NCBI GenBank assembly: GCA_958296125.1
Contig: OY282444.1
Location: forward strand, 3,691,623 to 3,755,622
Direction of reading: 5' to 3'
Origin: an uncultured Poribacteria bacterium
GTDB lineage: Bacteria; Poribacteria; WGA-4E; PCPOR2b
Length of the DNA stretch: 64,000 bases
Positions 11,154-48,637 of this stretch are shown here, piece after piece. Every line of letters begins with the position of its first letter. Position 1 is the first letter of the stretch. The notes under the pieces are model-generated. The model searched no databases, was not told the origin of the DNA, and worked only from the letters and a program-made list of their open reading frames with translations. The translations under genes were made by a program, and so were the position numbers.

Positions 11154-12152
11154 TTACATTGATTGAAAGAAGTCAGCTAAGTCCTTGCCGTGTGTTCTTG
11201 CATTGACCTGTTTATCGAGTTTGATAATCTGTCCGTTTTTGTCGATGACAACCGTTATACGACTGCTCAAACCATCCGGTTTGTCCGTCGCGCCGAAGAG
11301 CAAACTAATGTGGCGGCCTGTGTCCACAAGCAACGGAAAGTTAAGATTGTTATCTTCAGCAAACTTCTTGTGAGACGCTGCATCTTGTACACTGACTGCG
11401 AAGATTTGCGTATCATGTTCGGCAAATACACTCGACTCATCCCGGAGCGAGCAGACTTCTGCCGTTCAGCCGCCGGTAAAATCTTTGGGATAGAACGCTA
11501 GCACAACGTTCTTTTTCCCTTTGAAGCTGCTGAGTTGATAGGTTTTGCCATCTTGATCAGAAGCGATGAGGTCTGGTGCAGGTTGCCCGACCTGAATTGG
11601 GCCCGGAATGCTTCCCTTGATTAGCTTGACGAGGTCTTCGCCGTGCGTTTGCGTGTTCACGTTTCGATCTATTGCACGAATATATCCCGCTTTGTCAATA
11701 ACGAAGGTTGCCCGGTTGGAAGCCTGAAACTTTTCCATAATGCCGCTGTAGATCTTACTGACCGCAAATTCCGTATCGGCAAGTAGAGGGAACCCAAACT
11801 TCTCCGCCTCTTGGAATTTTTTATGAGAGGCTTCATCATCGACGCTAACCCCCAAAACAACTGTATCCGTTGCCTGAATTTGGCTCAACTCATCCCGGAG
11901 CGAGCGGAGTTCTGCCGTTCAGCCACCGGTAAAATCTTTGGGGTAAAATGCCAAAACGACATTCTTCTCCCCTAGATAATCGCGTAGGCTATGGGCGACT
12001 CCATCTCCGTCATTGAGTGTGAAATCTGGTGCTGCCATGCCAACTTTCAGGTCTTTGAATGTTTCCATCTGTTTCTCCTTCGCGCTTATTGTGCTGATAA
12101 TTATGAAGAGTGTAAAAACAATGGTGATGCAGAGCATTGGTATACGTAACAT
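11154..12152 (-). CDS. Secreted dual-domain BCP/PrxQ peroxiredoxin with two selenocysteines (UGA readthrough)
   Basis: Three open segments in one frame are joined across two TGA codons, at 11921-11919 and 11468-11466, each followed by TAE(L/V). Read as Sec, they give one 332-residue protein ending at TAA. The ATG at 12152 has a GGAGG site. Residues 1-24 are a signal peptide ([21 protein letters not shown]). Two PrxQ/BCP domains follow, each with FYPKDFTGG directly before the UGA, which is exactly where the peroxidatic Cys belongs (Sec78 and Sec229). Domain 2 keeps a Cys five residues after Sec, as the resolving Cys in E. coli BCP. Domain 1 has Arg there. Peroxide reduction in the periplasm is inferred. 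Two independent nonsense mutations at the same catalytic codon are very unlikely. Confidence 0.88.
11431..11451 (-). promoter_or_regulatory. SECIS-like hairpin after the second UGA
   Basis: The same fold as at 11884-11904 and at the same distance from its UGA, with a bulged C instead of U. In the 35 bases after UGA the two copies differ at only three positions, although the protein domains around them have diverged widely. Confidence 0.65.
11884..11904 (-). promoter_or_regulatory. SECIS-like hairpin after the first UGA
   Basis: Bases +15 to +35 after the UGA fold as CUC and GCUC pairing with GAGU and GAG (one G-U pair), with one bulged U on the 3' side and a CGGGAU apical loop. The loop guanines are 23-25 nt after UGA, within the range known for bacterial SECIS elements, where SelB recognises apical-loop G residues. 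Confidence 0.65.
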
Positions 12153-12335
12153 TGTGTGCCTCCGGTCGGGATTCAAAGCAACTGGAACTTTTTATTGGTT
12201 CATTGAAATGATAGACACTTGTCTGAATCAGGATACTCAGGATTCAAGGATTTACAGGATAACAACCGTGAAGTCTCGTATCGCACCGATGGGGCAAAAG
12301 GAATAAACCTCACTGCACCGTCCTGCTGAGACTTT

Positions 12336-44080: not shown

Positions 44081-44638
44081 ATGAAGATCCGTGAAGATTT
44101 GATACCGGGCAGCATATTCCCAAACTTTGAACGCCCCGATCAAGATGGCATAACCAGAACGCTGGAGGGTTTGATGCGTGGCTGGCCGACGGTGCTTGTC
44201 TTTTGGCGCGGGGCATATTGACCGAAGGATGTTCTCCAGTTGGAGAATTATGCAAAGGAATTGCAGCCCGAATTGGCGGTCAACTACTGTAGGTTAATCG
44301 CTGTTTCAGTTGATGATCAGGAAACAACGGGGGGGCTTCGTGAACGTATCGGTGCGACATGGCCCTTCCTGATTGACCTTGACCGGGCATTGATTAATGA
44401 GTTGGACATCGTAGACAATACGGACCCCACCCATTCGCCGATCCCCATCCCCTATACTTTTGTCCTTGACGGGGACCGTGAGATCTACAAGATTTATAAC
44501 GGTTGGTGGTTTGTTGGAAGGCCCACCGTGGAAGAGCTGCGGCACGATTTGCGGGCACTGTTAGCGCGTCGGGACGACTATGAATATGATCGGGCGTGGG
44601 ATGTCTCGGAGGAGGCGAGAGAGAAGGCGTTTCTCTGA
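44081..44638 (+). CDS. Peroxiredoxin-like selenoprotein with Sec47 (UGA readthrough)
   Basis: The ATG at 44081 opens a frame that reads IREDLIPGSIFPNFERPDQD, then TVLVFWRGAY, a TGA at 44219-44221 and PKDVLQLENYAKELQ. It continues to a TGA at the end, 185 residues in all. AhpC/TSA-like proteins have (F/Y)RGxWCP(x)CxxQL at this point, so UGA stands for the peroxidatic Cys. The rest of the fold is present (LIAVSVDDQET, FLIDLDRALINELDIV, YTFVLDGDREIYKIYNGWW). A perfect hairpin follows the UGA. There is no signal peptide. Without readthrough only a 46-residue stub is made. Confidence 0.82.
44232..44247 (+). promoter_or_regulatory. SECIS-like hairpin after UGA 44219
   Basis: UUCUCC and GGAGAA pair perfectly around AGUU, 11-26 nt after the UGA. 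A G at +18 lies in the loop, close to where SelB reads the loop guanines in E. coli fdhF (+19/+20). The hairpin is within coding sequence, as expected for a bacterial SECIS. Confidence 0.6.
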
Positions 44639-47400: not shown

Positions 47401-48372
47401 TTACTGCCCCGGATAGGCACGGTTTTCCAACTCAGCGATGAACTTTTCCGCCGAGATAGCCGCTGCGGCACCGGCACCTGCCGCCGTTATCGCTTGGCGA
47501 AAGACGTGGTCATGTACGTCTCCGGCTGCAAAAACGCCGTCGATATTGGTGCGCTGGAGTTTGTCCACCATGATATAGTCCTGCTCATCCATGTCGATCA
47601 CGCCTTTGAATAGCTCGGTGTTCGGGATGTGTCCGATGAAGATAAATACACCATCAATCGGAAACACTTGCTTTTCATCGGTCTGCACGTTTCGGAGCAG
47701 CGCACCGGTGACCTTTTCATCATCTCCTTGAATCTCTTCAACGACCGTATCCCAGATGAACTTGATTTTATCGTTCTTGAAGGCGCGTTCCTGCATAATT
47801 TGGCTGGCACGAAGCTGATCTCGGCGGTGAACGACATAGACCTCTGACGCATACTTTGTCAGAAATATCCCTTCCTCAAGGGCGGCGTCGCCTCCACCGA
47901 CAACAATAAGGCGTTGGTTCTGGAAAAAGAATCCATCGCAGGTAGCGCAGTAGGAGACACCACGTCCCCCGTACCCTTCTTCGCCTGGGATGTTGAGTGT
48001 CCGCGGCGAGGCACCGGTGCAAATGATAACCGATTTGGCGTGGTATTCCTTGTCGTAGGTCTTCAGATAGAACGGGTGGCGATTGAAATCTACCTCCGTT
48101 ACCATGTCAAACCGGACCTCGGTCCCAAAACGCTCGGCTTGTTTCTGCATTCCTGTGATGAATTCCGCGGCTTCAGTCCCGAAGAAGCCCGGATAGTTCT
48201 CAAGGTCGAGCGTCAGTGAGAGTTGTCCACCGAGCGCGTCCCCGGTGATGAGTAGCGGCTCTAGCATTGCCCGTGAGGTGTAGACCCCTGCGGCGAAACC
48301 CGCCGTGCCGCCACCGATAATGACGATATTACGCTCTTCCAAACCATCGCCTCCGTTTTTTATATCTGCCAT
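47401..48372 (-). CDS. trxB: Thioredoxin reductase
   Basis: A 323-residue FAD/NADPH disulfide reductase. FAD binding is IVIIGGGTAGFAAGVYTSRA, the redox motif is SYCATCDGFFF and the NADPH motif is LIVVGGGDAALEEGIFL. GVFAAGDVHDHVFRQAITA completes the FAD site. AAGGAG lies before the ATG at 48372, so it truly overlaps the grx gene by 44 bp. It could reduce the thiol partners of the Sec peroxiredoxins in this window. Confidence 0.95.
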   Translation of the reverse strand: MADIKNGGDGLEERNIVIIGGGTAGFAAGVYTSRAMLEPLLITGDALGGQLSLTLDLENYPGFFGTEAAEFITGMQKQAERFGTEVRFDMVTEVDFNRHPFYLKTYDKEYHAKSVIICTGASPRTLNIPGEEGYGGRGVSYCATCDGFFFQNQRLIVVGGGDAALEEGIFLTKYASEVYVVHRRDQLRASQIMQERAFKNDKIKFIWDTVVEEIQGDDEKVTGALLRNVQTDEKQVFPIDGVFIFIGHIPNTELFKGVIDMDEQDYIMVDKLQRTNIDGVFAAGDVHDHVFRQAITAAGAGAAAAISAEKFIAELENRAYPGQ

Positions 48373-48637
48373 CTGTTTCTCCTTCTATGTTGAAAATTTC
48401 ATCCAGTTTCCTTGATTGTGCGAGTTCTGCTAAATCGTCATCATCGCCGATATGTTGATCATCAATGAAGATTTGCGGTACATCGCGGCGACCAGTAAGC
48501 CTTTCGATTTCATCGCGCATCCCGGGCTTTCCCTGAATATTGATTTCTTCAAATTCGATTCCCTTCCTGTCAAGGATACCTTTCGCCTTGTAGCAGTACG
48601 GGCAGAAACTGGTTGTATACATTTTAACGTTTGGCAT
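48329..48637 (-). CDS. Glutaredoxin
   Basis: A 102-residue GrxC-type glutaredoxin. The active site is TTSFCPYCYKAKGIL (CPYC), with the cis-Pro in RRDVPQIFIDDQHIGDDDDL. A basic tail (GRYKKRRRWFGRA) is unusual and overlaps the trxB start. The pair grx-trxB forms a small thiol-redox operon. Confidence 0.93.
   Translation of the reverse strand: MPNVKMYTTSFCPYCYKAKGILDRKGIEFEEINIQGKPGMRDEIERLTGRRDVPQIFIDDQHIGDDDDLAELAQSRKLDEIFNIEGETDGRYKKRRRWFGRA

Follow-up and report, generated by a model that had tools for sequence, protein, structure and literature searches.

The gene at 44081-44638 of the window (the whole stretch of Poribacteria DNA analysed, 64,000 nucleotides long) almost certainly encodes a selenoprotein, in which an internal UGA is read as selenocysteine (Sec) in the active site. 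This assignment was reached by comparison of sequences: UGA/Cys alternation among the homologues, purifying selection, covariation of a SECIS hairpin and the Sec machinery of the host genome strongly support the selenoprotein call of an earlier note on this DNA. The product is probably a mono-selenol thioredoxin-like redoxin with a 'UxxD' motif and an external resolving thiol, as judged from alignments and a structural model. The features of the gene are as follows.

44081..44638, + strand: complete gene of the predicted redoxin selenoprotein, 185 codons, Sec47, with a Pfam match that spans the UGA
44219..44221, + strand: UGA codon 47, predicted Sec residue at the N-terminal position of the UxxD motif (U-P-K-D), from UGA/Cys alternation
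44228..44230, + strand: codon of the invariant Asp50; in alignments this residue takes the place of the second CxxC cysteine and of the peroxiredoxin peroxidatic Cys
44231..44248, + strand: putative bacterial SECIS-type hairpin with a G-containing AGUU loop that lies 16 nt past the UGA, supported by covariation
44240..44638, + strand: truncated open reading frame with TTG start, 132 aa, without the active site, from the table-11 ORF list

Reading frame and homologues of the redoxin gene

The gene ends with a TGA stop codon (44636-44638), and the orthologues share the same end point. Translation around codon 47 gives ...VFWRGAY-U-PKDVLQLENY... (UGA = U), which confirmed all sequence facts given in the earlier note for the motif FWRGAY-UGA-PKDVLQLENY with Sec47. 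Two Pfam profiles match across the UGA, AhpC-TSA with 60.5 bits (1.9e-16, curated cut-off 26) and Redoxin with 43.6 bits (3.3e-11, cut-off 26.6), and the product is a member of the AhpC/TSA - Redoxin superfamily by these profiles above their cut-offs. No signal peptide is apparent. The dN/dS values of the window gene towards its closest relatives were 0.07-0.12 before the UGA and 0.05-0.06 after it; being low on both sides, they indicate that both halves belong to one constrained protein. In this frame the table-11 ORF list offers 44240-44638 as sole ORF, in agreement with the prediction that a gene finder would call only the part from the TTG at 44240 and lose the active site. The UxxD redoxin is an example of an active site cut off by standard annotation.

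The search for orthologues in 40 genomes of relatives revealed seven, with 78-91% identity and each with a single in-frame UGA, while a partial match (50%, with TAA) in genome G008 was rejected as a truncated copy whose frame is lost before the active site. The named sequences most closely related to the gene come from MAGs of Candidatus Poribacteria. A wider scan of the genomes of 84,980 species yielded 44 loci. For the 40 sequences covering the motif, which include the window gene and come from about ten phyla, codon 47 was TGA in 20, TGC in 13 and TGT in seven, and nothing else was found; the Cys homologues whose absence the earlier note had named as evidence against its call thus make up half of the set (20/40). 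According to labels that come from MAGs, so that single placements may be wrong, the UGA members belong to Poribacteria, Gemmatimonadota, SAR324, Acidobacteriota, Rokubacteria, Neomarinimicrobiota, KSB1, Nitrospirota and Chloroflexota, and the Cys members mainly to Chloroflexota but also to Pseudomonadota, Acidobacteriota, Calditrichota and Atribacterota. At least five Sec/Cys exchanges are needed on the redoxin tree, the deep branches of which are only partly supported. Natural Sec and Cys versions of one enzyme permit direct comparison of the cost and benefit of selenium.

No viral copies of the redoxin were found in IMG/VR. On the KSB1 contig that carries locus L067, a second copy (L089:6001-6255) has the whole active-site part deleted in frame.

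SECIS hairpin and selenocysteine machinery

The perfect 6-bp hairpin described in the earlier note was borne out. The stem UUCUCC/GGAGAA (44232-44237 with 44242-44247) starts 11 nt past the UGA, and its loop AGUU fits the small apical loop with a guanosine that is a feature of bacterial SECIS elements (PMC1088965). An Rfam scan of the window gave no match. Folded alone, the hairpin had a z of -1.0 and 34 of 200 shuffles folded as well; the lone hairpin being within chance, comparison was needed to establish its significance. The inner five stem pairs are formed in all 19 distinct UGA members, with compensatory changes at three stem pairs and two-sided changes in 20 cells against 8.9 in shuffles. 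The covariation score was 0.378 against 0.160 in shuffles and against a maximum of 0.195 with the register slid, a measure in which related sequences can exceed shuffles and for which the Cys members served as control; sliding the register destroyed the pairing. In this control of 17 Cys members, 39.5% of cells were paired and no covariation was seen. The covariation strongly supports the SECIS call.

One Cys member (L056, 2910-3410, from a MAG labelled Betaproteobacteria) retains a hairpin, CGUC-AGUU-GACG, which is a probable fossil SECIS of a recent change from Sec to Cys.

The host genome consists of one contig of 5.16 Mb and carries a complete Sec set. A single tRNA-Sec with UCA anticodon (76.6 bits, cut-off 47) adjoins genes for SelB (370 bits) and SelA (601 bits), and SelD was found with 370.5 bits, itself with an internal UGA. 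All four components are therefore present, and the lack of such machinery had been named in the earlier note as the other observation that would speak against the call. Among redoxin-bearing genomes, SelA was found in 15 of 18 with the UGA and in 17 of 20 with Cys. Of 100 genomes sampled from the class of one Cys-bearing genome (HGW-Chloroflexi-2 MAG), 87 had SelA and only three had the redoxin. The redoxin family as a marker of Sec-using genomes was rejected, as no association could be claimed against this class background. Apparent Sec use in that class is very high.

If the UGA were a normal stop codon, the result of a sequencing error or the mark of a pseudogene, the two halves would not form one protein. 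The hairpin taken from a lone sequence, being without significance, would agree with this, but the same UGA is seen in 20 records from several phyla, selection is purifying on either side of it, and the UGA/Cys alternation, the SECIS covariation and the Sec machinery in the genome point the same way; such a reading is already contradicted by the sequence comparisons, and its probability is considered negligible. Decoding of the UGA as Cys or Trp is hardly credible either. Reassignment of UGA occurs in some bacteria, but this gene itself terminates at UGA, the genome contains the tRNA-Sec with UCA anticodon together with SelA, SelB and SelD, and the internal UGA comes together with a hairpin that members with a Cys codon have mostly lost.

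Active site, predicted structure and proposed mechanism

The position of Sec47 was examined with an alignment set comprising 5epf (TxxC), ResA (CxxC), the double TxxU peroxiredoxin of the window and 26 UxxC relatives, in three alignment modes. U47 aligns with the Thr of the peroxiredoxin motif PxxxTxxC, which corresponds to the N-terminal Cys of the thioredoxin CxxC, while Arg43 falls on the Pro of PxxxTxxC and Pro124 on the catalytic Arg, the thioredoxin cis-Pro. The placements of U/C47, Asp50, Arg43 and Pro124 were identical in all three modes for 28 of 28 aligned members. These members all carry RxxxUxxD or RxxxCxxD in place of PxxxTxxC(U), and all have Pro124 at the cis-Pro position, where the catalytic Arg of peroxiredoxins is found (PMC2757866). 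All four canonical catalytic residues of peroxiredoxins are missing. The second Cys that follows three residues past the Sec in UxxC proteins is likewise replaced by the invariant Asp50, which together with an invariant Lys49 lies next to Sec47. According to a comparison of the thioredoxin fold class, the position of the CxxC pair that peroxiredoxins use is the C-terminal one (TxxC), and they have Arg at the cis-Pro (PMC2757866); by this convention and the alignments, the nucleophile of the 44081-44638 protein is in the thioredoxin position. The UGA had been placed in the earlier note at the peroxidatic Cys, a position that Asp50 occupies instead. The match to RGxWCPxC proposed there holds for the site as such, but Sec47 stands for the first Cys of that pattern, the one of thioredoxin type, and a second one is lacking (UxxD).

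The AlphaFold2 model, built from 28 alignment rows, had a pLDDT of 90.4 and a pTM of 0.84. Its best fold matches in PDB were BcpB/PrxQ (BcpB with a TM of 0.83 by target), Bcp4, 1-Cys peroxiredoxins and ResA. The only Sec/Cys residues of the redoxin are 47 and 70; in the model, Sec47 lies just before helix 48-68 and Cys70 just after it. These 21 helical residues would span about 30 Å. With this helix between the two residues, no internal partner is expected for Sec47. Cys70 as resolving Cys was rejected, since it is at the opposite end of the helix in the model and one Cys clade has Thr in its place.

In the proposed mechanism, SelB carrying Sec-tRNA would bind the hairpin just past the UGA and insert Sec, the selenol of which would be located at the N-terminus of helix 48-68, in the place of the nucleophilic first Cys of the thioredoxin CxxC. 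The oxidised substrate that the selenolate would then attack is most likely a hydroperoxide, or else a disulfide of a protein or small molecule. Since Sec47 has no second Cys within its reach, the resulting selenenic acid or selenenylsulfide would be resolved by an external thiol such as glutaredoxin, thioredoxin or a low-molecular-weight thiol.

The chief alternatives to this mechanism differ in the chemistry assigned to Sec47. The 1-Cys-type peroxiredoxin with Sec as true peroxidatic residue, as read in the earlier note, agrees with AhpC-TSA as the best Pfam family and with BcpB and 1-Cys peroxiredoxins among the best fold matches, but is improbable given that U47 falls on Thr, D50 on the peroxidatic Cys, R43 on Pro and P124 on the catalytic Arg in 28/28 members and three modes. 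A monothiol-type thiol:disulfide or substrate-specific oxidoreductase, derived from a thioredoxin/ResA-like protein by change of CxxC to UxxD and without peroxidase activity, has a chance somewhat below even. The nucleophile and cis-Pro positions are as in thioredoxin/ResA, and structures of ResA rank high among the fold matches; on the other side, normal dithiol turnover is gone with the second Cys, and peroxide reduction is a task for which Sec is often employed. This oxidoreductase and the UxxD redoxin with external resolving thiol overlap in all but substrate. Whether peroxide and not disulfide is the main substrate of the UxxD redoxin appears evenly balanced, and the loss of all four canonical peroxiredoxin residues weakens the peroxide step.

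Genes for a thioredoxin reductase (TrxR) and a glutaredoxin are situated at 47401-48637, about 3 kb from the redoxin gene, and their products are candidate reductants of the UxxD redoxin; the proximity holds within one genus only, and the genes are not in an operon with it. In two relatives with contigs long enough to include it, the TrxR gene is kept nearby. The gene order in the genus is mandelate-racemase-like, NHL-type, Gfo/Idh, redoxin, PhyH, sialidase-like and TrxR. A conserved operon partner was rejected, as synteny holds inside the genus and not beyond. Around the redoxin genes of Anaerolineae, a DUF1684-like gene and genes for transporters are found repeatedly, an observation that is uninformative for Poribacteria.

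Relation to known selenoproteins and other selenoprotein genes

The 2026 inventory of 119 prokaryotic selenoprotein families and subfamilies, which assigns proteins with one domain to separate subfamilies when their Sec motifs differ, lists for this fold group members with TxxU, UxxC, UxxU, UxxS and UGC and no UxxD redoxin (PMC13188914). None of the NCBIfam models takes the UxxD redoxin above its cut-off, and a search of a literature library for 'UxxD' with selenoprotein and peroxiredoxin found no paper. It is apparently an unlisted variant of a well-known kind, the thioredoxin-fold redox selenoproteins, and its absence from the inventory and NCBIfam is not proof of novelty.

The Prx-like thiol:disulfide oxidoreductase selenoproteins (UxxC/UxxU; PMC13188914 Table 1, PMC1088965) share with it PF00578 and the Sec at the first position of a CxxC-derived motif. 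Many UxxC relatives, with about 27-35% identity to the window redoxin, occur in the same order of Poribacteria. Unlike them, the window redoxin has an invariant Asp for the second Cys, and it forms a separate subfamily with the signature IYKIYNGWW + GRPTxEE. Sec-containing peroxiredoxins (TxxU, PF00578) also belong to this fold family and have an in-frame UGA in the active site, but their Sec is three residues later, in the peroxidatic position, and Pro, Thr and Arg are kept. The peroxiredoxin-like family selenoprotein (cd02970, UxxS; PMC13188914 Table 1) likewise has a single Sec and no second motif Cys, and differs in the motif, with Ser where the window redoxin has Asp. The closest solved relatives by sequence, which are also among the closest by fold, are M. 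tuberculosis BcpB (5epf) and ResA (3c71), with about 20% identity and with TxxC and CxxC sites, respectively. There is about an even chance that the UxxD redoxins constitute a distinct, unlisted subfamily across some ten phyla, with repeated Sec/Cys exchange, a single selenol at the thioredoxin N-terminal position, no resolving Cys, an invariant Asp and a chemistry that differs from both peroxiredoxins and UxxC redoxins. The UxxD motif adds to the catalogue of thioredoxin-fold selenoproteins.

Poribacteria seem to be rich in selenoprotein genes, and the library search found no paper linking them to selenoproteins. The window holds one further gene of this kind.

11154-12191, - strand: AhpC/TSA-like protein of two domains; its frame contains two UGA codons, which read through as U91 and U242

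Both UGA codons are at the peroxidatic position of PKDFTGGU (TxxU), and a signal-like segment is found at the N-terminus; by its sequence the product is likely an exported two-Sec tandem peroxiredoxin. It is probably the 'first' selenoprotein implied by the earlier note, which called the redoxin the second. Outside the window, redoxin-like frames with one in-frame UGA are present in the same genome at G000:C1:4919055-4919519, 4811107-4811601 and 1188163-1188561. In many Poribacteria genomes among the order-level relatives (L025-L045), UxxC peroxiredoxin-like genes with an in-frame UGA lie side by side, frequently in groups of two or three.
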